64,000 nt of DNA from Antedon bifida (lineage: Eukaryota > Echinodermata > Crinoidea > Comatulida > Antedonidae), in assembly GCA_963402885.1 (NCBI GenBank), contig OY727103.1:7478501-7542500 (forward strand). Reading direction: 5' to 3'. Made by a program: the position numbers and the translations under genes. This document shows positions 1 through 41,104 of the stretch, piece by piece. The first letter of the stretch is position 1. Each line of letters opens with the position of its first letter. The notes below the pieces were generated by a model. That model was given only the letters and a program-made list of their open reading frames with translations. It had not been told where the DNA came from and did not search any database.

Positions 1-2857
1 TCTAACTAGTTTATCTTATAATTTATAATTCTGCTATTAAACAATCTCATAATAATGGCCAAGGTGGTTACTGGGCGGGAGAAGTCCTTGATCAATGACA
101 AGGTGCGTTAAAAACCGTCCTCATGGCTTATATAGTTTAATCCATCATTTTGATGAATTTTTAAACCGACTTCTTTCTTTTGTTCGTACGTACCTCATTT
201 TCTCTAAATTCGATACATTTTGTTTCCATGGATTCCTGAATATAGATGACATGTCTCGATTACTTTCATTGCTCGTGGACATTAACCTAATATACTCGAG
301 TTTGACGTACTTTCGAATAGTTGTTGCTTTTGACGGTGAACTTTCCAAGTTGGTATACTTAACCAATAGGTCTACGTTAACTGGCTCTTGACGCAATTGC
401 GAATACAACCCAATATTCCGCACAGTTTCATTGTAGGAATGAAATATCAACCTAAATATTATTATAAACGATTGGTTAAAAAAAGGTTTCACATTTTAAA
501 CTTTAACCCTAAAATCAAGTACGCAAGAGAACCGCAAATATTGACCAATCACGACGGGAAGGAACATATTTTGATATTTTTCCCTTTGTGTCTTTAAATC
601 GCCACCAAACAGCACTCAATCCACAACACATTGCAACATAAAGCGTTTTGAAAACGTACTTTTTTTCAGTAAATCCACTATTACATTTAGAAAATGTCTA
701 TCCTTACCGTAAATACATCAAAAATGATATGACCGAAATTCCAAGCGTGATCGAAAAAAACCTGATAAAGATCTTCATGGTTATAAACCAACATTTGACT
801 GGAAAATATAATTATTAGGCCTACATTACTGTTAATATTTCGTCTACCAGTTTACAATATTTTTGTTTTGGCCGCCATTTAAAAAATGCCTCAGATATTG
901 TCATTTAACATACACTTTTTTCTGCTACAGTGATTTTTTGAGTCTGTATACTCTAGCTAGTGAACATTATGTGCTACATTTGAAAACTTTGTCATCATCC
1001 GTGTAACCATTCTGGTCCACTATTAGTAACGGACGTGCTTTCTACCAAAACAACTTCCGCACGAATCGAATGCGCACGAAAAATATAGTAGATGTATTTT
1101 TCAAAACGTGACCCTTAAAACACCATTTTTTTTATTGAGTTTTGAGATCCGTATTTAAATACCATATTTTGAAAGAATGGTATTTTCTTGCCAGAAGAAG
1201 TGTCTATGATTCCGGCCTCAGTATTCGTCAAAACATACCAGTTTAACCATTATGGAGCAATAGGCCTACTATTGTTAACGCGATCTTTTTTTTATAAAAC
1301 CTTTTCGCAGATTTGTTGTCAGCAGAAACTGGGCCTAAAATGAAACCACCGGACCGCCGAAGTTGAATCGTATAATTTTTACTAATTTATCATTATAGAT
1401 ATACCTAAAATTTCAGTCAAATAATCTTTTAAAAAAAGTTTTAATAATCTTGATATCGTGAACTATGATTTTTTTGAAGTACGATGTCATTTATTGGATG
1501 AATAATATGGGCACTAACCACGGCTGTTTCAAAGATATGAATTAAGTCACGCGCCGCCAACGGTAGAGCGGTGTATTGTGGAGCTACCATTCGCAAACAT
1601 TTAAACGCGAATCCATGTGTGTATACCGGAAGCTGATTACTCATAATTTGACCGTTATAAAACCAACCAATAAGAAATAAATATAGACCGAGAGCTGAAA
1701 TAAAATTATGAATATTCATTAATACAACAGCCGAGACAGAAAGCATGTTGTTTTAAAAGCCTACTCGACTGATGACATGCTGATTTTGAGTGTAGAAATT
1801 GAGGTCCAATTCCAAACATTTTCATAAAATGCGTCTTACGTAGGCACAGTCGAAAGTAGGTATACATTTGTTTTTATATATCTTGGTTAAATGTATTTTT
1901 CACGGTAAACCTGCTGTAGGGTTTGGTAATTTAGATCCTTGTGATTGTTGAAACATTGACTTTTTCAAAAGGTGCCGGCTGAAATTTAAATTATGGCCGG
2001 TTCAATTTATGCTATTTCTAAGCCTAGAGGACAATTTTTGCCTTCTCCAGTCTCCACGCGCATGTGTATATACACTACATAGTTCTAGGTCTACTACACA
2101 CAGTACTTACTAGGCCTGCCCTGTTTTAACTGCTACCTCTAAGTCTATTACTATTGCTAAGCCTAGACTAGGCCTACCTTATTATTAATTAGTTAGGCCT
2201 GGTCTGGACCGCCCAAGTTAAGAGGGTAGGCTAGCTAGGGAGGAGTAGTTGTGGTAGGGCCTAAAACCTTCCTGCTGGCTAGCCAAGAAGGGGTAGACCT
2301 AGCTAGGCTAGCTATTTCTATTATTATATATGTGGCATACTACTACAGTAGGCCTACATCATTCATATCAATATCATATGTGGGTCTGATAAATAATAAG
2401 CGTAATTTAAACAGAAATTACAAGAACTATCCTAGGCCAGGCGATCTACCGGTACTACAGTAGGCTAAATATGCATGTTTACAGTAAGTAAAGTATCATT
2501 ATGTCTAGGCCGATACTCGTATACTTTTTTTTAGCAAACCCGTTCTGTTATATAAACCTAATAATATATATATGTTCTTTTTTATTTAGACCAATCTTAA
2601 ATCTATAGTACAGGTAATATTGCTACCAAAAGGAAGACCGAAAAAAAAAAAGATGGATGCAAACATCAAAAAGTAAACAGAATTTTTCACATGCGGACCT
2701 ATACATGCTCATGCATACAGAGTGGCAAAAATACAACTGATACGCGCAATGTCTAATGATGATTGGTGTTTAAGATGAATATTGCTAGCTTTGCACAGAT
2801 AAGTAACATAAAGAATTATAATTTTTTATTACAGTATTTATGAATATTGTTTTCAAC
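1..2857. other. Intergenic, no supported gene
   Basis: AT-rich sequence without a convincing gene. Two minus-strand open frames of about 100-115 codons (145-492 and 1441-1746) have no recognisable domain. The stretch at about 2090-2470 is dense in TAGGCCTA-like words. A poly-A-like run lies near 2640. Confidence 0.5.
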
Positions 2858-3376
2858 AACATTACATAAAATTAACTTTCTTATTGTATTCTCATTCCTT
2901 TAAAAATAAACCTCAACAGGCAGTTATTTCATTAATTAACATTACATAAATTTCAACAACATACAGTTTAACCTGCATTAAAATGCTTATGTCTGGCACA
3001 ACTACTATTATTAACATTACATAAATTTAAACTTTCTTATCTTATAATACCTTTCAAAATTAACCTCAACAGGCAGTTAGCTCATTCTTCCTATTTACAA
3101 CAACACAACATTAAATGTAACCTGCATTAAAATGTTAATGCACACATCGGGCACAATGCATACTTGTACATTTCATTATTTTTCATCTTTATTTTATATT
3201 AACATTACATAAATTTAAACTTTCTTATCTTATAATGCCTTTCAAAATTAACCTCAACAGGCAGTTAGCTCATTCTTCCTATTTACAACAACACAACATT
3301 AAATGTAACCTGCATTCAAATGTTAATGCACACATCAGGCACAATGCATACTTGTACATTTCATTATTCTTCATCT
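2858..3376. repeat. 188-bp tandem repeat running into the 3' end of the RAG1-like gene
   Basis: Two close copies start with AACATTACATAAATTTAAAC at 3013 and 3201, 188 bp apart, and differ by only a few bases. A third, more decayed copy starts near 2858. Each carries the words CCTCAACAGGCAGTTA and AATGCATACTTGTACATTTC. The last unit ends inside the final codons of the minus-strand RAG1-like gene (stop at 3364-3366), so the array forms its 3' untranslated region and appears to have grown by copying the end of the gene outward. Confidence 0.85.
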
Positions 3377-6300
3377 TTTCTCCGTTTCGTCTGGATTGTG
3401 TCTTGGATTGTTGGATCTATAAATGTTAAATGAGCTTTCATAATTGATACTAATTGATCTAGGGGGCTCTTCATCCCATACACTGACCGTTTCCTCCTAT
3501 TAAATTCAGCGTGAATTAATTCCCCACCCTGCTCGGCTAGTAAGCCGATACCAACTTTCCATTCCCTCATGAACTGGATACAATGATGTTCTAACATGTG
3601 TAGCTTTGGCTGGACTACTCTAGGAGCAACTCTCCTGTACTCTTTTGAAAAGAGTTTTATAGCACTTTCTGTGGAAGAAAGGATATTGTAACATATTATA
3701 ATGGTAACAGCCCTGCATTGTAACAACGTATTCATAATTATTTAATTTTGATTGCATTATCAATATCATTGTATCGTTATTGTGAATATTGATACTAATC
3801 TTAAATAATTATTTTATCATTTACAACTGAAATTTACCATATGTGTCTATCTCTTCGTCAGTTATAGATCGTGTATGATTGATAGCAGTGTGCACTTTAC
3901 TAAAGGTTGAAAACACTGGCGTAAAAGAATCTTGGATTTTCTTGAATTTTACCTCAAGTAGCTTTTTGCAATTTTCTGGGCATTGGTGCATTTGTTGTTT
4001 GAGTGTTACATCAACACCATCAAATAGCTTGTCAATTATATTTGACTGAAATAAAGGTAAATAAAACTTTTTAGTTATTACCTGCATCCTTTTTTTTATT
4101 AAATGCAGCTGGGTACATTGTGTGGGATTGCACTATTCAATATACTCACTTTACATGCTCTATGAACGTGGTTGCCCACAAAACTTTTGCCGTGGTACTG
4201 TTGCCTAGGGATTTTGTTTTGTCTGAGGACCTCATCCATTTTCGTTGCCAATGGGCCGCAACCAAATTTCAGGTCTTGGTTTACTGACGTTTCCTTTAAA
4301 TTTAGACAGAATAATTTTCTTTGTAAATTCTATTATGATTTTAGTGTGTACAGTAATTAAATAAAAATGAAACATACCAAATCCATGACTTCTTGTTTTT
4401 TCAGATTTATTTTTGCACCAAGTTCAGTTATTTCTTGAGGATTTGCTTTTTGTCCAACAAGTGCATAGGAGAGGCTATTTCGTAAATCATCAAGTTTTTG
4501 ATTTGCTTTTTGCACTTTTTCTGCACAAGTAATTCTGTGTGCTGCACATTCTGCTACCTTACGGTCAAAATCTGCTAGATGTTTACCTTGAAAAAATAAT
4601 TAATTATTATTATTTTTGAAAATGTGGAGGAAAAAGTTTTAAATAAAAAGGAAATTAACATTTACTGACATACCTGTTGGAATTGTAGATTCCTGTCTCA
4701 TGTTGAAGATAATTACATCAAGATTGTGTATTTCAATCTCGAGCAAATCGTACATTTTCTTGAATAGCCCGAGAGAAATATGCAGTGCTGGAATTGATAC
4801 CTGGAAATATACATTAATTAAAGAGGTATGAAAATATTATTAGTTGTTTTAAGTTTGTTATTTAGAACTAATATTATTTTGGACTTGTTTGTTTGAATTA
4901 TAATTTAAATAACCTACCAGATTTAATTCAATATCAACCATGTAAGGCCGGATGACACTGTGTGATATCAGTTTGCTCTTTTTTGGGTCACTGCCATGGT
5001 CAAGAAAACTTTTGTAATCCCTGTTGTATGTCTTTAGGCATCTGTTTTCTGATGGTTTGTTGTTAGACCTAATGTCATCTTGACTACACAGGCAGTATAT
5101 ACAGCTATACTTTCCTTTAAAAAAATAACAGAAACAGTATATTATTTTATTTATCAGAACAATAGTTTATTAAGTTTAAAAACTTAAATAAAAAAATAGG
5201 TGAATTTAACTAACCGTTGGGACTAATTAGTCCATATATTCTGCAAAGAAAGTCATAGTCTCCGAAGAAAAAAAGTCTGATGTTGTGAGGTCTGAAATTA
5301 GATTAATATAATTTAATTAATTAAAATAAATAATCTCTTTATATAATACTTATCTCTTAGCATATTAACAGTACACAATATTCCAGTTAATTTAGATTGG
5401 CTTATAGGCCTACTCTAGTACAACTCCCTCTAAATGTACAAAATTATAATTTACAAATTTTAATGGAATTGTGAACTTACATTTTGGTTTTAGGAGATAT
5501 CCACTGACTGCCATTCAATTCCATTACTTCATCCATTATTAAATTGAGTCCTTTGTTGATGTTGACAGTCAAATCTGGGGCCTGGAATATCAAGACTACT
5601 ATAATGTTGTGGAGAGCATTTGGTTTGGGTAACGCACAAATTTGTATCTCAAATTTTGTGGTATCACCACCCTTATCGCCTCCAAATTTAATAAATATTT
5701 CTCCATTGTTGAAAAAAGTTAGTTCATCTGACCTGAAATGCAGGAAATAATTTGTTTTATATTTATAATTCCTTATGTTATAGCTGTACATACAATTGTT
5801 AATAAATGTAACTATTGATATTTCTTATTACTAATTGATAACTTTTATTTAGTTTGGTTGTTAAATAAAATTGTTATTAACATACAGTTTGTGTTTGTTT
5901 TTTAAAAAAAAATTATTAATGTGTACATTTTACGATATTTTAAAAGTACAAAATATATGTTCAAGTTTTAGTGGTACTGTACTGTATGTATAATAAAAAT
6001 GCACATCACTGGGTACAGTACTATTACAGTACTATAAAAGTTTAGTAAAAGCCAATCAGCAATGTGTTGTAAGGATAACCAGGAATGGATAAAAAATTGT
6101 ATACATACATTTCATATTGATTTAAATATTCATAAATCAGTTTCTTAATTTGGGTGAGTCTGACGACTGCAACCTCTTCCAATGACAGCCCACCAATTGA
6201 CGTAGCTCCCTCCCTCTTTACAAACATATACTCGGTTGATTTAACTAAATAGCCATCAACAATTTTGTCTTGGCATATTCTCATCTGGCGTTCTGATGCT

Positions 6301-7561
6301 AGTAAGCCTGGACAAAACCTAAAAATCAAATAAATAATTCAACTGCATAATAATTTTCATAGTGATCAGTATGTTTTATTACAGTAGTTCTGCAGTGGTT
6401 TATAAATCAATCAATTTATTCGTTATGGATTATGAGAATTCACTAATTAAAACTTCAATTACCTTCGTAATGCCCGCTGCTGACTCCAATTTATTTTGCA
6501 GGCGTTCATGATACCAAGGCACCTTGTTGCATCCATTTTTTGACCATTAGTATCTGGTGCAGCAACATTCACTTTGGTGGCTTGTGAAGTGGTAACCATG
6601 TTTAGTGGCTTCAAAATTGAAAATGTTTTCAATTAATTACAACCAGAAAATAATATTTAAGCCTCACAAAATAATGACTAATCAGATGATTTTAAAGGAA
6701 AATTATTTTATTATTATATAATATTAATAATCGGATTTGGAATCTTACCCGTCCTTGAGTTTTCAAAGTTATTTTCCCTTCAGTCACATCTTGATGAACT
6801 AGCTTATGTGCCAGATTTGATAGCTCTGTTGGGTAGACATTTGTGTTGGCAGTTGCAGTTTGGATGTCTTTAACAGCATTTCTAATTTTCATAAAAGCTT
6901 GTTCCTTTTCCGTTTTACATACATGATTGTCTGTTTCACTTAGGTATAATTTTGACAGACAAATAGAACATTGAAGGACAACTGATGTTAATGAGTGCTC
7001 AATGATTGCCGGAATTTGCACAAGTTCGTCCTTCTTAAAATTAAAATTACAACTAAAACAGGGAATAGATAATTTGGAAATAGCAGAAAACAATTTAGTT
7101 GTACAGTGTGTACAAAAAAAATGGCCACATGGTGTCTGGACGCTATCAAGAGATAACATTTTATTGCAAATTAAGCATTCATAAATTTTATCACAGTCGT
7201 TTAAGATTTTGAACTGCCGACTGATTGTGGCTAGCGGCGGAGGAACTGAAGTAAAATTACCGCTTGTGCCTCTTTGAAAATTTTGTTTCTGTCTTCGCCC
7301 TGATACTAGTTGACTTCTGTATAAAAAACATGCTAGACATCTTTCCTCATGTGGCTTATAATGAAACGGCGAAAGAGAATGCCCTTTATAAAATCGTGAA
7401 TGACAAGTGGAACAAAGTGCCTCTGGATCAACAGAATTTTTAATTTCAAATAAAGGGGGTAATTTGTTCATGTTGGCCAAAGTGTACCTCTCATCTTTTT
7501 CTTTCATTTTTTTTCCACAATCAAAACAAATAGAGGACAGTGCCTTCTCATGAAACTCCAT
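3364..7561 (-). CDS. RAG1-like DDE transposase/recombinase with RING finger, 11 exons, 895 aa
   Basis: Exons on the minus strand: 7561-6749, 6608-6463, 6318-6109, 5732-5481, 5291-5215, 5114-4918, 4800-4674, 4586-4378, 4293-4150, 4045-3838, 3668-3364. All introns are GT..AG and all phases match, giving 2688 nt without an internal stop. N-terminal region: Cys pairs at 12/15, 50/53 and 75/78. RING: C129-x2-C-x12-C-x-H-x2-C-x2-C-x14-C-x2-C171. Second finger: C198, C201, H213, C215. Core: GGDKGG (D409), then FFFGDYDFLC (D485 or D487), CIYC (C504/C507), LHMLEHH (H818/H823) and AEQGGE (E840/E844). The CxxC and HxxxxH match the split zinc site of RAG1, and the acids match its D-D-E triad in order and rough spacing. 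Family knowledge: such proteins cut DNA at terminal repeats or recombination signals. The ATG directly follows a good acceptor, so a 5' exon may exist. It could be an active RAG/Transib/N-RAG-TP-type transposon or a host gene; I found no terminal inverted repeats. Confidence 0.85.
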
Positions 7562-10500
7562 CTGTGGGAAGATAGTATTTCACATTTGATACAGTGCAAT
7601 TCCATTTGTTGTAAACTAAATTAATATCTAGTTCTAGGCCTAGGAAAACATGCATATTCAGTGAATATTGAAATTAATAAATGAAACAATCGTATTAGCT
7701 AGCATTATTAAAAATTATTAATAATCATGTTACTTAAGGAAATTTAATTCATTGCGAAAAAATCACACAGGCTTGGGCCTAGCTTAAAGCTAGGCCGCCA
7801 GAAAGGCCACGCTCGTCGCGGGCCTCGTCTGCGCCTGCATACCCGGTGATCGGCTAATGTTTCAAAAAAGGCTGTTGTATTACGATAATTTATAAGATAT
7901 TGAACCGTCACCTTTTAACAAAACTATGTTAAATATTACCAATTAGTATTATTGGTTTACAGAAAATAAGTATTATCTTTTAAAAAATAACGATGTAAAC
8001 ACAATCGGTGAAGTTAGACGGTGTATTTTTAACTTTTGTTTGTTTACAATATAGACTACGCTGTTCGCTGCTACTTCCGGGTAAATTAACCGACTTTTAT
8101 ATTCGATAAGTCGTCTTAGTAATTGTTTTTTTATCATTATGCTGTAATGAAATCATAAAAAATCTGGTTTCAAACCAGCAAATACTAACCTTAATTGATA
8201 ACTTGATTAAAAAAACGTTAAATTGACTACAAATGATACTTGTATATTTTTGACGTTCGCGAAAGTTTCATAACCTCTCGCGAACGAATTTTCAATCTTC
8301 CGCGGTTCAGAAAAAGTCGTCTGCTAACATTGAGGGCGCTTGACTTTTTCTAAAATATTATCATAGGTTGAAACAGCTGTGTAACTTCAACGCCTTTATA
8401 ATTAAATATTCTGTAGTCCTTTGGAAAAATGAAGTAAAACATACACTTACATACGTTTTATAAAACAAACAGACGGAGCAGCTTTATTTAATTCTTCCTA
8501 TTATTTTGATTTAAAAATTGTAGGCCTACAACGTTAATGCACCCTACCATATATAGCGTAAAGCAAACTGAAGATTAAGTTTAGCAGCAAAAATAAAAAT
8601 ATACTAGCACGTAAATTCAGCAAGCAAATACTTGATGTTCAAATCTTATTGCATTTCCCTTCTTTGTGTGTTACAACAATGCTCTTCGATTATTGTTAGG
8701 ATTGCCTATAGACACCGCAGTGCTAGTGACATATTTTTCATATACTTTTCATTGTTACTAGGCCATGGGCTGAACATCAAAATTGTTACTTTTCGTGGTG
8801 GCCCCTCTGGCAACTACATATTCTTTACATATAAAGTTTGAAAATAATATTTACAACATTAATCATAAACTTGCCATCGCCAATAAGGCACTGTTTTTGT
8901 AAAAAATGAAAAATTATGAACAAATTATGAATTGTTGAATATAAATTATAAGCCAATCGCGAATAAGCTTTCATAGGCGTTTGGAGAGTTTTATTAAATG
9001 TTGACCAATGAGAAGCCTTCTGATATAGCTATTCGGTACTAGCTTGGTATCAACAAAAAAACACTAGACGGTCACACACATGTTGTAGGCCTACTCTTTG
9101 TGACTTTTATGATAAAATATGCCGAATTAGTGTTGTATTGACGTATCTAACTCTGTGAAAAAGTTTATAAAACTAGCAGCAGCAACACACGCTAAATTTT
9201 AAGAATGTTACGCATGGTGGAAGCTACCTACTACTAAATGTTATGCATTTTGACTTCACTCCACCACCAGCAGAGTGATAAAGGGCTAGCCTACTAGGCC
9301 TAGGCCTACTAGCTAGGCCTACCCTACTAGCTAGAGAGAGGCACCCTATTCGATTGGAAGATGGTTAACAAGCAGTACTCTATTTGCCTTCTACTAGGTA
9401 AGCCTACAAAAGAGGGTAATTTTTAAAGCTATTTTATAGGCCTATTTGTTCATGTTATTAATACTGTAAAGTGTAATAATGTATATTATTTATAGGCCTA
9501 CCTAACTAGCCTAACTAGTAGGCCTAGGTAGTAGGGCCTACTAGCATGGCATTATTGTGGCCTTGGGTAGGCTTAGAATCAATCACAATAATGCCATGGT
9601 GTTAATAGTTATAATACAGCTGAGTTGGTGGTCATCATGTCATTCAACATTGACTGATTGAGACTAGCTTTAGACCTCCAAGTCTACCTCTATTTTGTAA
9701 CGTTATTCTTTTTTTTTCTAAGAAAGTCAACAAGAATTCCACAACATCTTGAATTTAAAGAGCTGAAGAATACAGGTTCAGTGACAATGACAAAAAAGGT
9801 AGTTTGCAGTTTAATTTACTGTACAGTGTAAGTACATACAGTTCACATAAAAACATGATCTACAGTACTTCCGTTATCATATACTGTATGTTTTCTTTAT
9901 ATTTGTCATACAAAATAAAAAATTATTATCACTATAGTCCTTGTTATCAGGTGAACTGTTACTATACTTGTTAAGTTCACAATTTAGCTGATCACAGACA
10001 ACTCATGTCATCTTATTCGTAACATTCTGTCTTTTATTTTACAGTGCAAGTACTGTATCTACCAATCTAAGAATAAATTTCAGATCAACAGTCAGTTAAT
10101 GGTTTAACTCTGCCTTTGATTGCTGGAAAAAAATATTTAATTAGGAAATATTCTATAGCATTAACAAATTACAAAAAAATATATATAATATTATATCTAT
10201 TGATTTTTTTTCCGACATATTAGAACAACAATATGCCATACATCTTATACTTTAATATTACGCCATTTTTACCAATATATTGTAAGTAATTCATTGTACT
10301 TCATAGCTAGCTATGATTACTTTATACATTTTAGCAACTCATGTTAAATTGATATTCACCTAATAATGTTCTTTTATTTGTGTAGAAATAAATATTACTA
10401 TTAGTAAATATATTATCATAAAAAATTAACATGCTATACATAACATATCTTTTTGATGGTGTTTTAAAAAAACTGTTTCGTAATATCCTGTAATAATATA

Positions 10501-17804: not shown

Positions 17805-19887
17805 ATGAGAAAATATCGGGTGTTGCCGATGCAATGGCGATTTAACGGCACCATGTTGGCTTTTCTGTTGCTCGTCTCTGTCGTCTCTGTTGTCATTATG
17901 CTGGAGTTCGAACTTACAGTCAATAAGAACAGCTGGCACAAGTATTTTATTTGGGATCATCATCGACGGTAAGTTATTTTGATATTTTTCTCTCCTAAAC
18001 TTTAAAGTTATATTATCCACATGAAAAATTAATTTTATAGTATTTTTTATGTCATTTTAATGTCATGTAACAATAAAAAAAAAAAAAAAAGGAAACTCGA
18101 ACGCAAATATCGCCAATCGCTGCCAGACAATTGGTTTTTGGTTGAATTTTACCGTTGTGATTTTATAAGTGAAAATAAGTCTAATAGTTTACATGTTTTT
18201 GTGGGACAATACATCTTTTATTGTGAATATAATAACAAACATAAGCAACCGACCGGTACCCAAGCCAATAATACATATCTGGTATCATCTTTGTAACACA
18301 GAAATATTATCTAATATTTAATTAAACAATGAAAAAGTATTCTATAGACATATAACATTATTATCGTAATCGTATTAAACAGATTTAAAATACCTTAAAA
18401 CATTTACAATACTAAATTAGGAAATTCTGATGAATTTGGAATTACAAATGTGAATTGTAAAGTAAGCCACGGTAGCATTTCTTTTAAATTACAATTAATA
18501 ACTAACATCAGTATAAAATTAATCTATTTATTTATGAAAATATTACATGAAAGTTCAAATTGCGTCTATTAACATAACATTTAGAGTAGCCTATAACGAA
18601 TAGATAAATACAACCACCATCGGAACATTTTAAATTGTGTTTTTTAGGCCTATACTCTATCGTCATTATTTATTTACATATTATTTTGTTTTAACTTTTA
18701 GTGTAATCAACGGAACACAAGCAAAATGTACTGAAGGAAACAATGTGTGTAATAAAACAAATGACAACATAAGTGTACCTTCACCAACACAAGCGAAATG
18801 TACTGAAGTCGATTATATTGTGTTTCTAAAAACACACAAGACAGCCAGCACAACTCTTGCCTCCATTCTCGAGCGATTTGGCTACATCAGAAATCTACTT
18901 TTTGCCGTTAGTAAAAGTGGACACGCTTTTTCTAGTTCAAAATTGTTCAACCGCAATATGCTACCTTCACTCTCCTCTCTTAACTCTAAAGGTTTAAACG
19001 CATCATCTAAGCGAACTGGATATCATCTACTTACTAACCACGTACGATACAACCGTCCAGAAATGGACGCTGTGATCCACGATGCCAAGTACACTACGAT
19101 CATTCGCGAACCTGTCGCAAATTTCGAATCAGCTTTTGGTTATTTTGAAATAGCTAAGCATCTTGGATTAACAAGTCATAAGAATCCTATTGAAACTTTC
19201 ATGAAAACACCGAAGTTATTTCTCGACAAACATTTCTACCAGTGGAAAAGAGCTAAAAACGGCCAATTATTTGACCTTGGCCTAGAGCATGAATCATTTG
19301 ATGACTACTACACTGTCAAGTATAAGATTCTGCAACTGGACTCGGAATTTGATTTAGTTCTTATTACTGAATATTTTGATGAATCTTTGATATTGTTGAA
19401 AAAGTTGATGTGTTGGAGTTTTGAAGATATTCTCTACGTTTCTAACGGAATACGAAGCGCTAGTCATCGATACGCCCTCAACGATGAACTTCGAGCAAAA
19501 ATACGCGAATGGAATAGTGCTGACGTCATGTTGTATACACATTTTAATGAAACATTATGGAAAAAAATTAAAGAATATGAAGGAAATTTCGACAAAGATC
19601 TCGCCGAGTTCCGATCACGGCAACAACAAGCTATGAACAAATGTATTGACGATGAACGACTTAACAAGAACGACAGACGAGAAGTTAAATATGTCCTAAA
19701 ACCTAACATGAAAAAGTCCATTTTCTGTCAAAATTTGCTAAGAGATGATGTAGCATATACTAATTTGATTAGAAACAAAATGAAGCAATATGGCCTGTAT
19801 TTATCCTCCTCACCCAAGAAAAGTGTTCCCATTCTTCCGAGGGCACGAAAGCCACATTCTTCTTCACGTCGTAGGCATAGGCCTTAA
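17805..19887 (+). CDS. Galactose-3-O-sulfotransferase-like protein, copy 1 (two exons)
   Basis: Exons 17805-17968 and 18702-19887, joined in phase (CG|T codon) across a GT..AG intron, give 449 residues. Exon 1 encodes a short basic head then a hydrophobic run (about 17-32), a type II signal anchor typical of Golgi sulfotransferases. Exon 2 holds the PAPS 5'-phosphosulfate loop LKTHKTASTT (97-106) and the 3'-phosphate motif REPVANFESAF (about 190-200), the two hallmarks of the Gal3ST family that moves sulfate from PAPS to the 3-position of galactose on glycolipids or glycans. The stem has a duplicated TQAKCTE motif and NxT/S sites; the C-terminus is rich in Arg, His and Ser. The continuous frame starting at 18637 reads through the intron and is probably not the real start. 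The exact acceptor sugar cannot be told. Confidence 0.88.
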
Positions 19888-25307: not shown

Positions 25308-27374
25308 ATGAGAAAATCTCGGGTGTTGCCGATGCAATGGCGATTTAACGGCACCATGTTGGCTTTTCTGTTGCTCGTCTCTGTCGTCTCTGTTGTCATT
25401 ATGCTGGAGTTCGAACTTACAGTCAATAAGAACAGCTGGCACATTATTTGGGATCATCATCGACGGTAAGTTATTTTGATATTTTTCTCTCCTAAACTTT
25501 AAAGTTATATTATCCACATGAAAAATTAATTTTTATAGTATTTTACATTTTAATGTCATGTAACAATAAAAAAAAAAAAAAGAGGAAACTCGAACGCAAA
25601 TATCGCCAATCGCTGCCAGACAATTGGTTTTTGGTTGAATTTAACCGTTGTGATTTTATAAGTGAAAATAAGTCTAATAGTTTACATGTTTTTGTGGGAC
25701 AATACATCTTTTATTGTGAATATAATAACAAACATAAGCAACCGACCGGTACCCAAGCCAATAATACATATCTGGTATCATCTTTGTAACACAGAAATAT
25801 TATCTAATATTTAATTAAACAATGAAAAAGTATTCTATAGACATATAACATTATTATCGTAATCGTAAGATTTAAAATACCTTAAAACATTTACAATACT
25901 AAATTAGGAAATTCTGATGAATTTGGAATTACAAATGTGAATTGTAAAGTAAGCCACGGTAGCATTTCTTTTAAATTACAATTAATAACTAACATCAGTA
26001 TAAAATTAATCTATTTATTTATGAAAATATTACATGAAAGTTCAAATTGCGTCTATTAACATAACATTTAGAGTAGCCTATAACGAATAGATAAATACAA
26101 CCACCATCGGAACATTTTAAATTGTGTTTTTTAGGCCTATACTCTATAGTCATTATTTATTTACATATTATTTTGTTTTAACTTTTAGTGTAATCAACGG
26201 AACACAAGCAAAATGTACTGATGGAAACAATGTGTGTAATAAAACAAATGACAACATAAGTGTACCTTCACCAACACAAGCGAAATGTACTGAAGTCGAT
26301 TATATTGTGTTTCTAAAAACACACAAGACAGCCAGCACAACTCTTGCCTCCATTCTCGAGCGATTCGGCTACATCAGAAATCTACTTTTTGCCGTTAGTA
26401 AAAGTGGACATATTTTTTCTCTTTCAAATTTGTTCAACCGCAACATGATACCGTCACTCTCCTCTCTAAACTCTAAACGTTTAAACACATCATCTAAGCA
26501 AACTGGATATCATCTACTTACTAACCACGTACGATACAACCGTCCAGAAATGGACGCTGTGATCCACGATGCCAAGTACATTACGATCATTCGCGAACCT
26601 GTCGCAAATTTCGAATCAGCTTTTGGTTATTTTGAAATAGCTAAACATCTTGGATTAACAAGTCATAAGAATCCTATTGAAACTTTCATGAAAACACCGA
26701 AGTTATTTCTCGACAAACATTTCTACCAGTGGAAAAGAGCTAAAAACGGCCAATTATTTGACCTTGGCCTAGAGCATGAATCATTTGATGACTACTACAC
26801 TGTCAAGTATAAGATTCGGCAACTGGACTCGGAATTTGATTTAGTTCTTATTACTGAATATTTTGATGAATCTTTGATATTGTTGAAGAAGTTGATGTGT
26901 TGGAGTTTTGAAGATATTCTCTACGTTTCTAACGTAATACGAAGCGCTAGTCATCGATACGCCCTCAACGATGAACTTCGAGCAAAAATACGCGAATGGA
27001 ATAGTGCTGACGTCATGTTGTATACACATTTTAATGAAACATTATGGAAAAAAATTAAAGAATATGAAGGAAATTTCGACAAAGATCTCGCCGAGTTCCG
27101 ATCACGGCAACAACAATCTATGAACAAATGTATTGACGATGAACAACTTAACAAGAACGACAGACGAGAAGTTAAATATGTCCTAAAACCTAACATGACA
27201 AAGTCCATTTTCTGTCAAAATTTGCTAAGAGATGATGTAGCATATACTAATTTGATTAGAAACAAAATGAAGCAATATGGCCTGTATTTATCCTCCTCAC
27301 CCAAGTTAAGTGTTCCCATTCTTCCGAGGGCACGAAAGCCACATTCTTCTTCACGTCGTAGGCATAGGCCTTAA
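25308..27374 (+). CDS. Galactose-3-O-sulfotransferase-like protein, copy 2 (two exons)
   Basis: Exons 25308-25465 and 26189-27374 join in phase, giving 447 residues. The anchor exon has lost two codons relative to copy 1 (HKYFIW became HIIW) but keeps the frame. The PAPS loop LKTHKTASTT and REPVANFESAF are unchanged, so catalysis is probably preserved. Most differences from copy 1 change the amino acid. They cluster just after the PAPS loop (GHIFSLSNLF here versus GHAFSSSKLF), where nine or so replacements fall in about 100 bp. The remaining changes include L-to-R, G-to-V and K-to-L. This pattern fits altered acceptor specificity, relaxed constraint, or gene conversion from another paralogue. 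Confidence 0.87.
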
Positions 27375-36071: not shown

Positions 36072-39000
36072 TTAATTGATAATTGCGGAGCGCTTTTTCC
36101 ATGCTCTTTTGGCATATATTTTGCAAAATTTATCAAGTATTAGATGGGTTTCTTTACTGAACACATGATAGTCACTTCCAAGTGTTAGGTGTATTTTAAC
36201 ATCAGTATTAGAATTTATGAATAAGTGCCAAATATGATTAAGGTTAGAAGATTGCAATTGTAGTTTTAAACTCATGGTTTCTTCTTTTCTAATGTCGTCG
36301 TAAGCAGGACATTCAAATAGGAAGTGTGTTACGTTTTCTATACGTTTCATATTGCATAGACTACATAAACCATCACTTTCAGGTAGCCAATTGCATTTTC
36401 TACCTTCTAATGGCAGAGTATTTGTGCGCAGCTTAAATTTGATACTTACCCCTTCAAAATCTGTTTTGTCCAGAAGGTAAGTTTCAAGACAAGGGGTTTT
36501 TTTTAAAGATTTGTATTCGTTGAGTGATGATTTTGTATTTAACTCTTGGCTCCAATTAGTAATTGATAAATCAAAGAGAGATTGTTTAAGAGGGCATACC
36601 CAATGTGAATTAACAATTTCTTTGTTTTTACGAATATATTCAAATATATCATTTGCATTACCTTTAGTAAATAGGTTTTCTAAGTGATTTACAATCTTAT
36701 AACTTAATAGATTAAAATTACAGTTTAAGTCAAGCAAAGAAGTAAGTAATAGTTTTGGCCATCGATTGTGATCCATCAATAAAATACGATTGAAAAAATT
36801 TATCCTATAATTATCCTGTATAACAGAAATAGGCGACCAGCCAAGTTCGCCGTACAACGCTGTCCGTGGTGTATTACGTGGTGCTTTTAAAATACACCGT
36901 GCCATTTGAAGCTGCAATTTTTCAAGTTTATCAACGTCAGAATAACTACCACACCACGTTGAGCAAGCATAATTAATTGACGGTAAAGCGATTACCTTCC
37001 ATAAAATATCACCGTAGTATATGCGGTTGAAGTTATTACAATTGTCAATAATTGACTTGATATAAGCAATTAGGCGATTTCCCTTTTTAATTAAATTTTC
37101 AAAATGAACATGATCATTTAGATTACGTGATATAAAAACACCTAAATACTTATAAGTATCGACTTCTGAAATGCCATAATCTCCTAACTTCCATATCTTA
37201 TTTTTATCAGTTCGCTTGCCGATTATCATAATGTTTGATTTTTCATAATTGAATTTTAGTTTCCAAACTTTGGCAAATTGGGTTGCAATATCCAACATTT
37301 TTTTCATTTCATGTTCATTGTCTGCAATAAGAACAACATCATCAGCCCAAAAAATTCCTCCTAGCCAGATATCATTAATTCGTACTCCAATATTATGGGA
37401 TTTCAGAAGTTTTGTAAACTCGTGTATAAAAATGCAAAAAAGTACAGGTGAGAGTACACACCCTTGCTTTACACCTTGTTCGATATTAAAATAATCTGTA
37501 CATATATCCCCAAACTTTACATGACCTCGTACATTTGTGTAAAGTGCATCAATAATTTTCCAGACGCGGCCTCTAATGCCTGAAGTCCAGGCTGCTGTTA
37601 ATAGGCCATCTCTCCACACGGTATCAAACGCCTTTCGGAAGTCCAGGAAGGCTAAATGTGTTGTCTTTCCCTCTTTTCGACGACATGCGACAACACTTTT
37701 TAGAGTGAATATATGGTCTTCACATCTGTGTCCTGATCTAAAACCTCCCTGGACCTCCGAAAGTACATCGTTGTTTTCAAGATAGTGGGATATATTTTTT
37801 GCCACTATTCTATTAAAGACCTTTGAAACGCATGAGTTTAGAGAGATTCCTCTATAATTGTTTAGGTCTTTACGATCTCCTTTTTTAAAAATTGGACATA
37901 TAATGCTAGTGTTCCATTCAGATGGTATTTTTTCAAGTATAATTATTCTCTTAAATAGTTTTAGCAATGAGTTGTTTAGTACGTCTCCCCCGTTTTTTAT
38001 TAGTTCATTGGTAATGTAGTCGGGTCCTGGAGCTTTATTATTTTTTGCAAGTGAAATAGATTCGGCAACAATCTCATAATTAATTTCTATGTCATATAAG
38101 TAATTTTCTCTATTGTCTATGGATATGTCATCATTTTCATAATTGATTCTAATTTGTTCAACCGACTTCTTGGTTCTAAAAAAATTGTAATCACACATAT
38201 CCTGATCCATTTTACCTAGGGTTTCCCAGTATTGTTTGATTGTTTGGCTTATTAACTTTTTATCCGAAACAGTATTATTGGTACCTGGTACCTTGATACA
38301 ACCTATCACTTTGTTTTTATCGTGTTTACCACCTCTTAAAGATTTCCAAAAGTCTTTGCATGAGGGACCACCTTTATTGGCAATATCAACAGACCGTTTC
38401 ACATTTGTTTTCAAGATCTTTTGCTTAATTAAACACTTGGCATTAGTACGTTTTTCTTGGTACGAAAGCCATAGCAATTTACGTTTGTTTTCATCGTTAT
38501 CTTTAGATTTAATGCATTGTCTATGGAGTTTAGCTGCTTTTTTCCTATCTCTGATAGCAGTGCCTATTTCTTTATCAAACCATGGTTTGCTTTTAGTCTT
38601 AGTTTCTTTAACGCCTATACCATTGGTTGCTGCGAATATTATAATATTTTTCCAGGATTCCCAGAGGGCATCAATATCTTCAAATGAACTAGCATCCCAA
38701 TTATTAAGTTTATTTTGTAAAATATGTTGATATTGTGAAAAATCTTGGTCATATTTAATATCCCATAGTTTGAGTTTCGGTGGTGTGGCTGTACTAGTTT
38801 TATTGTGTTGAACATTAATTGTTAACATTAGAACATTGTGATCACTACCTAGGCCATATTCTCTTTCTTCGTCTATTAAAAGGTTATCAACAAAATTAAT
38901 TAAATCTTTTGAGCACAAAAAATAGTCTATTGTGCTTTGTTTATCGGCCCTTGACCACGTTATTTTGCCATTACAGAGGATTGTAGAGTTTAATATTGTT

Positions 39001-39722
39001 AGGCCTGCATTGTCTTTAAATTCTAATAAGCGTTGACCATTAGAGTTTAATGTAGGATCCCCATTATCTATTTCTCTGCCAATCCTTGCATTAAAATCGC
39101 CCATCATAAGAATATGGGGATCATCTTGTTCGTTAAAACTTTCTATCTTAATTTGTTCTGAGAGCAACTGATTATATAATTCATCGGTTACTTCTACGTT
39201 AGCGCCTTCGACAGGAAAATAAGCAATGGCGATATACATAGAATTATTACAGTCCAATCGAACCTTTACCCACAATCTTTCATATTTATCGGACAGACTA
39301 TCAAACACATTGTCATCTAATATTTTAACATTGTTTGAAATGTAGATACCTACACCACCCCCACCCCTATCAATTCTGTTTTTACCAATCCAACGATAAT
39401 TATCAATATTAACATTCAGTTCATTTTTCAAAAACGTTTCAACAACTCCAAACATTTGAATGTTATTATCGTTAAGAAATTTAGGTATCTCATATAACTT
39501 TGATCTTAATCTATTTACATTATTAAATGCTATCTTAATTTCGGTGGCGTTTGTGTCGCCGTTACCTGTTTGAGTTTTACGTCCTCTTCTGTGGCGATTT
39601 CTTTTATGCTTTTTATAGTATGGCATTTGCACGGATTGTTTGTTTAGCTGAGTACAGTTTGGCTCATTGTTCTGGGTAATATGGGGTTCGTTAATAAGTC
39701 TCTTATCAAGCGAATGTTCCAT
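36072..39722 (-). CDS. LINE ORF2: endonuclease and reverse transcriptase
   Basis: 1216 codons, uninterrupted. The N-terminal third is an APE-type endonuclease (GDFNARIG near residue 207, SDHNVLML later). The reverse transcriptase follows, with FLDFRKAFDTVW, QGCVLSP and the catalytic WADD at about 791-794. Near the C-terminus a CxxC..H..C cluster (about 1115-1140, CSLCNMKR and HFLFEC) is a zinc-knuckle-like tail. Such proteins nick target DNA and prime reverse transcription from the nick. The intact frame suggests a recent insertion. Confidence 0.95.
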   Translation of the reverse strand: MEHSLDKRLINEPHITQNNEPNCTQLNKQSVQMPYYKKHKRNRHRRGRKTQTGNGDTNATEIKIAFNNVNRLRSKLYEIPKFLNDNNIQMFGVVETFLKNELNVNIDNYRWIGKNRIDRGGGGVGIYISNNVKILDDNVFDSLSDKYERLWVKVRLDCNNSMYIAIAYFPVEGANVEVTDELYNQLLSEQIKIESFNEQDDPHILMMGDFNARIGREIDNGDPTLNSNGQRLLEFKDNAGLTILNSTILCNGKITWSRADKQSTIDYFLCSKDLINFVDNLLIDEEREYGLGSDHNVLMLTINVQHNKTSTATPPKLKLWDIKYDQDFSQYQHILQNKLNNWDASSFEDIDALWESWKNIIIFAATNGIGVKETKTKSKPWFDKEIGTAIRDRKKAAKLHRQCIKSKDNDENKRKLLWLSYQEKRTNAKCLIKQKILKTNVKRSVDIANKGGPSCKDFWKSLRGGKHDKNKVIGCIKVPGTNNTVSDKKLISQTIKQYWETLGKMDQDMCDYNFFRTKKSVEQIRINYENDDISIDNRENYLYDIEINYEIVAESISLAKNNKAPGPDYITNELIKNGGDVLNNSLLKLFKRIIILEKIPSEWNTSIICPIFKKGDRKDLNNYRGISLNSCVSKVFNRIVAKNISHYLENNDVLSEVQGGFRSGHRCEDHIFTLKSVVACRRKEGKTTHLAFLDFRKAFDTVWRDGLLTAAWTSGIRGRVWKIIDALYTNVRGHVKFGDICTDYFNIEQGVKQGCVLSPVLFCIFIHEFTKLLKSHNIGVRINDIWLGGIFWADDVVLIADNEHEMKKMLDIATQFAKVWKLKFNYEKSNIMIIGKRTDKNKIWKLGDYGISEVDTYKYLGVFISRNLNDHVHFENLIKKGNRLIAYIKSIIDNCNNFNRIYYGDILWKVIALPSINYACSTWCGSYSDVDKLEKLQLQMARCILKAPRNTPRTALYGELGWSPISVIQDNYRINFFNRILLMDHNRWPKLLLTSLLDLNCNFNLLSYKIVNHLENLFTKGNANDIFEYIRKNKEIVNSHWVCPLKQSLFDLSITNWSQELNTKSSLNEYKSLKKTPCLETYLLDKTDFEGVSIKFKLRTNTLPLEGRKCNWLPESDGLCSLCNMKRIENVTHFLFECPAYDDIRKEETMSLKLQLQSSNLNHIWHLFINSNTDVKIHLTLGSDYHVFSKETHLILDKFCKIYAKRAWKKRSAIIN

Positions 39723-39764
39723 TAATGTTGTTGGTTCTGAGAGTTCTGCATTGCAGGCAAATTC

Positions 39765-41104
39765 CTATGTGCCGCGGTGATTGACTTGAGAGTCGTGCTT
39801 GTAGGAGTAAGGTCGGTTGTTTCTGTACTTGGTTGAACGTTGTCGCCATTTCGATGTGGAAACATTAAGGTTGTCTCTTTTGTCGTTGAAGAATTGTGGC
39901 TGATAGTAGCACTCCCATGTGTAATGGTTGTTCAGACCACATAGTTCGCAGTGTCTTGGATATGTCTTCTTAGGTTGTTTTTTAAGATGACGGTTGGTTG
40001 GTTTTACGGCGATAGCAGGGATAATAGCGTGTGAAGCATTAATATTGTGTAGCAACGCTCGTGTTCCTTGTTTGGAAAGATGTAACCCTCCCTTATTAAG
40101 GTTGTTTTGGGCTATGTCACCGTTTCTTAAGAGTAATGATTCATCATTATCTATCATGATACAGTTTTCGGTTCTTGAAATATTCCGTATAGATTCATTT
40201 AACCTGATAACTCGTTTTTGGTTTTCCAAGTCGTCGAGTCTAGGACACACGGTGGAAAGAACAATCTTGGACTTCGGAGATTTTTTCTTTAAGTCTTTAA
40301 CCATACCTTCGTATGCGGCAATTCCAGATATCAGCTTTTCATCAGATGTGCAGTTGTTTGTCCCTACATGGATAACGACAGATTCAAACGCGTTTGAGTT
40401 AATTGCATTGTTTAACTTCCCGTTTACATCATGAATTGTTCCGCCGCGTAGACAATCGACTTTTGTTTTATACAGTCCTCGTTCATTAATGTCTCTGATC
40501 ATTGAATCTCCGATTAAAAGAGTGGTATAATTTGACTTAATTGTAGCTTGGTCCTTTGAAAATCGATTCGTATGTGTAGAATTCCTATCAGAAGCAGTAA
40601 CATTAACATTTGAAGATGTACTTTCATTCAATGGTGGCTTGGAGATAGCGTTGGTTGTCGTATGTTGCTTGTTTGTTGAGACCCTTTTCAATTCGTCTTG
40701 TAGAGTTTCTATTTCCAGAGATTGTTTGCAAACGACATCGTTTAAAAGCACAATCTCCTTGTTCAAATCGTTTATCATTGATTCATGATCAAAGTTCAGT
40801 CTAAGGATTTTTTTATTGTCCTAGGTATGTCTTTGCATAGTGGACATATCCACACTTTAGGGTTTGATGTTGTTTTAATGTTTAGGCACATCTTATGGAA
40901 GCGTTCTTGGCATAGAGCACATTCAATAGGCTTTCCTTTGTCCATGTGCTGGTAATTGCAACCTTCTATTCATTGAATTCGTGACAGCGTCACTTGGGAT
41001 GCAATAGGTTTGCTAGTAGCAGTATCATAACTAGTGGTTGGAATATCTTCTATAGTTAGTGCCAAATCTTGATCCTTTGATTGAATCTCATTTTCAGTCT
41101 CCAT
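39765..41104 (-). pseudogene. LINE ORF1, broken: PHD-like finger, coiled coil, SGNH esterase, zinc knuckle
   Basis: The largest open piece (40778-39765, 337 codons) has a coiled-coil start, an SGNH-hydrolase core (LLIGDSMIRD near 86, VIHVGTNN, then GGLHLSKQGT) and a CCHC knuckle (CELCGLNNHYTWEC). Upstream, in another frame, 40969-40799 encodes a PHD-like finger (CALCQERFHKMC, WICPLCKD). Further upstream a start codon at 41104 opens the same frame, which is stopped by TGA at 40970-40972. The PHD and esterase parts are separated by a frame change at the A7 run (40808-40814 on the plus strand). So one nonsense codon and one frameshift split the original protein. Esterase-bearing ORF1 proteins are known in CR1-group LINEs. 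Confidence 0.82.

Follow-up and report, generated by a model that had tools for sequence, protein, structure and literature searches.

The DNA considered here is a window of 64,000 nucleotides from the crinoid Antedon bifida (assembly GCA_963402885.1, contig OY727103.1, positions 7,478,501 to 7,542,500 of the forward strand), which contains a complete Chapaev-type transposon of 6,863 bp with its gene on the minus strand. The first-pass annotation of this stretch had described an intron-rich RAG1-like recombinase or transposase gene; the feature is better described as the gene of a transposon that spans positions 1519-8381 and is flanked by TAAC target-site duplications (1515-1518 on the left, 8382-8385 on the right). 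We are highly confident that this gene encodes the transposase of an intact, recently mobile and autonomous cut-and-paste transposon of the Chapaev type, with a RAG1-like zinc region and RING in front of its core.

The limits of the element come from comparison with a second copy (L009), found on the same contig at a distance of about 690 kb. The homology found by BLAST runs from 1519 to just past 8381 and is bounded, to within a few bases, by CAC/GTG termini, which were thus found without searching for any motif, the window element ending in CACGGCTGTTTCAA and, read inward from the opposite side, in CACAGCTGTTTCAA. Over 6,859 aligned bases the two copies differ by only 7 substitutions, together with four single gap columns and one unit of a 188-bp tandem repeat, of which the window has two copies (3009-3378) and L009 one more. 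The target duplications of the two copies are not the same (TAAC in the window, AACT at L009), and with so few substitutions between copies at different sites at least one of them must have moved recently. The suggestion that the open frame reflects a young transposon is therefore borne out by a near-identical copy elsewhere and by the 4-bp duplications, and the alternative that had been offered, selection on a host gene, is superfluous as an explanation because there are several copies of the element and it has moved recently.

The gene itself was reproduced by splice-site enumeration and assembly, which gave the eleven exons that had been annotated (7561 to 3364, minus strand), with GT..AG at every border, agreeing phases, an open frame of 895 residues followed by a stop, and the named residues where they had been placed. 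Exon 1 (6749-7561) carries an N-terminal Cys/His region (residues 12-78), a RING (129-171) and a second finger (198-215), and is followed by exon 2 (6463-6608). A match to the Pfam domain DUF1280 begins in exon 3 (6109-6318) and lies for the most part in exon 4 (5481-5732), which also holds D409 within a GGDKGGD motif. Exon 5 (5215-5291) encodes D485 and D487, exon 6 (4918-5114) the CxxC pair C504/C507 and exon 7 (4674-4800) an LH motif (571-572), with exons 8 (4378-4586), 9 (4150-4293) and 10 (3838-4045) leading to exon 11 (3364-3668), in which HxxxxH (818/823), E840, E844 and the stop codon are found. The acceptors of exons 5 and 9 were not top-scoring and were recovered by spliced alignment, exons 2, 3, 8 and 10 being given by both enumeration and spliced alignment.

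Spliced alignment of the protein covered the window and nine of the 16 loci in the set L009-L024 (L010, L013, L016, L017, L020, L022 and L023 were left out). Eleven exons were recovered in eight of these ten (the window, L009, L012, L014, L015, L019, L021 and L024), with ten in L018 and nine in the fragment L011. Because eleven exons recur in so many loci, the eleven-exon gene with its 895-residue open frame is confirmed as more than chance. In the window, L009, L012, L015 and L021 the whole protein, or nearly all of it, is free of stops and frameshifts, as are residues 93-883 of L019, and L011, L014, L018 and L024 are broken. The true start may lie in a leader exon, as among the four loci examined for it the ATG of exon 1 is present in the window and L021 and absent from L015 and L024, which instead have an upstream candidate ATG followed by a donor site that the window and L021 lack.

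The window family is not the only intact one in this genome, two others (represented by L015 and L021) keep the eleven-exon layout and are 64-67% identical to one another and to the window in protein. All 33 residues checked, which include the zinc ligands, the acidic residues and the LH motif, are identical in the three. Nonsynonymous divergence (dN) between families is 0.23-0.28, synonymous divergence (dS) is saturated and beyond estimation, and differences are concentrated at third codon positions (0.55-0.58, the first two positions having 0.14-0.30), a pattern of constraint at the level of the protein. Within family B, L012 and L015 have 99.96% identity in coding sequence and occupy different insertion sites (ATTA and AAGT). 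A fourth family, D (L024/L036), has a full-length copy with a 4-bp duplication, in which the transposase gene carries two frameshifts and the segment E840-E844 is missing, and the ends of this family are also found on shorter elements.

The core of the protein points to Chapaev. DUF1280 is matched by the proteins of all three intact families (E=1.4e-14 over residues 361-462 in the window protein), and in the published literature DUF1280 corresponds to Chapaev transposases, which form a small clade with RAG1 in the tree of PMC3985635. Chapaev elements are in general marked by target duplications of 3-4 bp, by 5'-CAC/GTG-3' termini and by C(2)C, LH and H(4)H motifs (PMC4079192), and the counterparts here are the 4-bp duplications, the CAC/GTG ends, C504/C507, L571-H572 and H818/H823, with these residues identical in the three family proteins. 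Their order and conservation make a DDE transposase probable.

Both ends of the element are bipartite, with an outer block CACRGCTGTTYCA followed inward by an inner block AAGTNNNGCGCC. On the left, the outer block CACGGCTGTTTCA (1519-1531, plus strand) is separated by 12 bp from the inner block AAGTCACGCGCC (1544-1555, plus strand), and on the right the outer block, CACAGCTGTTTCA when read inward (8369-8381, minus strand), is separated by 22 bp from the inner block AAGTCAAGCGCC (8335-8346, minus strand). A search of the whole 315.6 Mb genome for an outer and an inner block separated by a gap of 5-35 gave 65 matches, with none for the reversed control; apart from 9 solitary ends, these fall into 28 pairs that face each other within 15 kb. 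CAC/GTG is found in all 28 pairs, although CAC was here a requirement of the search itself. Of the pairs, 26 lie between exact 4-bp duplications and two (L026 and L037) have none; no pair has a 5-bp duplication, and the duplicated sequence varies between insertion sites. Three of the 26 have the same flanks as another copy and seem to have arisen by later duplication, so that the distinct insertion sites number 23. In the four copies of 3.2 kb and 3.8 kb that were examined (L025, L027, L038 and L044) the transposase survives only in fragments, and these copies seem to be deletion derivatives.

The two ends of each element are unequal. Of the 65 matches, 32 have a spacer of 12 bp, 26 one of 22 and 7 one of 21, and every one of the 28 pairs, which belong to four related families, has one 12-bp end and one end of 21 or 22 bp. 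The difference is 9 bp in family B and 10 bp in families A, C and D, about one turn of the helix, and thus recalls the 12/23 signals of V(D)J recombination, of which it may be an analogue; the numbers 12 and 22 themselves depend on where the block borders are drawn, but the 9-10 bp by which the spacers differ are independent of this choice. In all eight longer copies compared (L029, L031, L033-L037 and L042), as in the window, the short-spacer end lies at the 3' side of the gene. The shared inner block was set against 1000 mononucleotide shuffles per family, scored by the best ungapped 22-mer, and its score was reached by none in families A and D, by 4 in family C and by 34 in family B, where the block on its own is not convincing. 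A relaxed search of the genome with the outer block gave 68 matches, of which 64 were known ends (one known end dropping out), one a variant end, one apparently unrelated and two known ends picked up again from a CAC upstream of them, and it found no further family with such ends. The asymmetry is therefore shown for four related families only, and not for the other DUF1280 loci of this genome (66 matches in total).

The asymmetry may be incidental, if one end was lengthened by about 10 bp in a common ancestor and passed on to all families without any pairing rule, an explanation to which we give nearly even chances. All copies share ancestry and so the 28 pairs are not 28 independent tests, published unequal spacers themselves vary, as with the 27/31 of ProtoRAG (PMC8289069), and the shared inner block is by itself not convincing in family B; the regularity of the spacing may thus be inherited and not enforced. 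Against this, the spacing has stayed constant to within 1 bp in four families despite change in the spacer sequence itself, and despite differences at 61-67% of the fourfold-degenerate sites of the gene. A more tentative proposal, and one that we consider rather doubtful, is that a clade of RING-bearing Chapaevs has a 12/22 pairing rule of its own, acting through a heptamer-like outer block and a distal block at both ends, in which only a short and a long end are productively joined, so that the 12/23 principle would either predate the split of Chapaev from Transib and RAG or have arisen twice.

At the short-spacer end, a region of about 210 bp (1519-1730) is conserved between families without evident coding capacity, with an identity of 67.6-69.0% in the pieces that BLAST aligned for families B and C and 75% over only 104 bases in family D. 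A second gene at this end was considered, as the window has an open frame of 103 amino acids there, and was rejected as coding, no frame being open throughout in the family B, C and D loci shown, as judged by eye. A scan of positions 1400-8500 against Rfam gave no match.

The front end of the protein resembles that of RAG1. Behind the Cys/His region, the pairs of which are invariant in the three families (C53 is changed to Y in the degraded L024), the RING is of the C3HC4 type and is followed by a finger of the C2HC type, and all eight RING ligands are invariant in the four exon-1 sequences compared. Two RING models match all three family proteins (best E 7.3e-05) and zf-C3HC4 matches two of them (best 3e-06). 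A profile of the three families gave 70 matches in the PDB, and among the 60 of these listed, chains of RAG1 match over the RING and second finger only (3jbw best at 1.1e-5, 1rmd at 1.3e-3 over positions 126-218, the weakest listed at 0.48).

It is this resemblance, together with acidic residues and a split zinc site that follow in the order seen in RAG1 and whose positions were confirmed, that would suggest a true RAG1-like transposon (RAG1L/ProtoRAG) or a domesticated RAG1-like host gene, as had first been proposed. Such an origin is very improbable. The Pfam RAG1 model (PF12940) is matched by none of the three proteins at E up to 10, with the proviso that the filters of HMMER drop most weak matches, all three having instead the DUF1280 core, and no match to PF12940 was found genome-wide, which is a weak result as control genomes gave none either. 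Among the same listed PDB matches none is to the core of RAG1 and none is to Transib or ProtoRAG by name. The duplications are 4 bp and never the 5 bp of RAG-like elements and Transib (PMC8355894, PMC7204232), and no RAG2-like partner was seen, eight other open frames in or beside the element having no Pfam match above cut-off, although spliced genes could be missed in this way. The split zinc site had also been taken as RAG1-style; its CxxC and HxxxxH are present and invariant, but it is not specific to RAG1, which has C(2)C and H(3-4)H in common with EnSpm, Mirage, Chapaev and Transib (PMC12730594). Whether the core lies outside the RAG superfamily depends on where that superfamily is drawn: it does if Chapaev is kept apart from Transib, and does not if Chapaev is taken as a distant clade within a single Transib superfamily, as by Kapitonov and Koonin (PMC4411706). 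The earlier interpretation is thus partly supported, Chapaev being already known as a distant cousin of RAG1, and the gene is not RAG1 itself.

An assignment to Chapaev3, Mirage or EnSpm/CACTA, which share C(2)C and H(3-4)H (PMC12730594), can be set aside as hardly credible, since the Chapaev3 elements examined in PMC4079192 have 3-bp TWA duplications and the EnSpm-like families of PMC12730594 likewise 3 bp, in place of the 4 bp of varied sequence found here, and since the core matches DUF1280 while DUF1258 (the Mirage model) and Transposase_21 are absent from the Pfam matches of the family proteins.

Several points tell against the assignment to a Chapaev-type transposon with a RAG1-like front end. 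The match to DUF1280 is limited to residues 361-462, none of the RING matches of the window protein reaches the curated Pfam cut-off, and the RING of BRCA1 matches the profile slightly better (1.8e-6) than does RAG1. The label Chapa would be attached to residues 12-78 by the pattern of their Cys/His pairs and their position only, and the DDE centre and zinc site are putative, being read from motif order and conservation.

Elsewhere in the genome, 19 of the 66 DUF1280 matches are crowded within 0.65 Mb of C8 (21.56-22.21 Mb). With 17 of them equal in score, this crowding suggests local amplification of another Chapaev family.

If the Chapaev-type transposase works as its parts imply, a dimer or tetramer would bind both blocks, outer and inner, at each end, and an RNase H-like DDE centre, made up of D409, D485 and either E840 or E844 and held by a zinc site of C504, C507, H818 and H823, would cut at the CAC/GTG borders. 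Insertion would follow with a stagger of 4 bp, the length of which is shown by the duplications. The RING and second finger probably serve as a module for dimerisation, ubiquitin ligation or both, by analogy with RAG1. The constant spacing of 12 against 21-22 suggests that synapsis may prefer one short-spacer and one long-spacer end.

N-RAG-TP reportedly has RSS-like ends, that is, ends like the recombination signal sequences (RSSs) of V(D)J recombination. It is known from Aplysia (Panchin and Moroz 2008) and is likewise a mobile element with sequence like the N-terminus of RAG1, but has that part only (PMC8355894), to which the window element adds a full transposase core. Also among the closest published systems are the Chapaevs with a Chapa domain and RING (Kapitonov and Koonin 2015, PMC4411706), which likewise have a Chapaev-type DDE core and an N-terminal zinc region followed by a RING. 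As RING-bearing Chapaevs have been published, a RING front end on a Chapaev core is a known architecture; the available part of that paper mentions no bipartite end with unequal spacers, a comparison made with its descriptions. Transib, ProtoRAG and the RAG1-RAG2 system share the CAC termini and a DDE centre with split zinc site, and RAG1 also the RING, but differ in their 5-bp duplications, in a core of RAG1 type and, for RAG-like elements, in the RAG2 partner. Unequal bipartite ends like those of the window element are known from RSSs (12/23), from a few Transibs (12/23) and from ProtoRAG (PMC8355894, PMC8289069), and according to PMC8355894 some Transibs are the sole known case of 12/23-asymmetric transposition besides V(D)J recombination. 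No Chapaev with unequal bipartite ends was found in the literature searched, a provisional result as Repbase and the N-RAG-TP paper lay outside its coverage.

The rest of the window contains a cluster of histone genes (33207-53509) with repeated H3, H2B and H2A and one H1, named by eye, which seem to be of echinoderm type. A long interspersed nuclear element (LINE) is also found, with an open second reading frame (ORF2) of 1,230 amino acids that encodes endonuclease and reverse transcriptase (36072-39764, minus strand) and is preceded by an ORF1-like frame (39765-40820, minus strand) for which Pfam gives, at E up to 0.001, a GDSL esterase domain and nothing else. Two frames of 417 amino acids on the plus strand (18634-19887 and 26121-27374), about 7.5 kb apart, are very similar by eye, and the first, which was the one scanned, matches galactose-3-O-sulfotransferase.

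On the prevailing view, RAG1 unites a Transib core and a zinc and RING front end that, among transposons, has been reported on Chapaev. With its several families and near-identical copies within one genome, a RING-Chapaev system that is intact and has recently moved offers a testable living example of this front end on a related core. The literature ties the origin of the 12/23 rule to RAG2 and the vertebrates, or to a few Transibs, and if unequal ends do matter for pairing in these elements, that origin would become directly testable in an independent relative.

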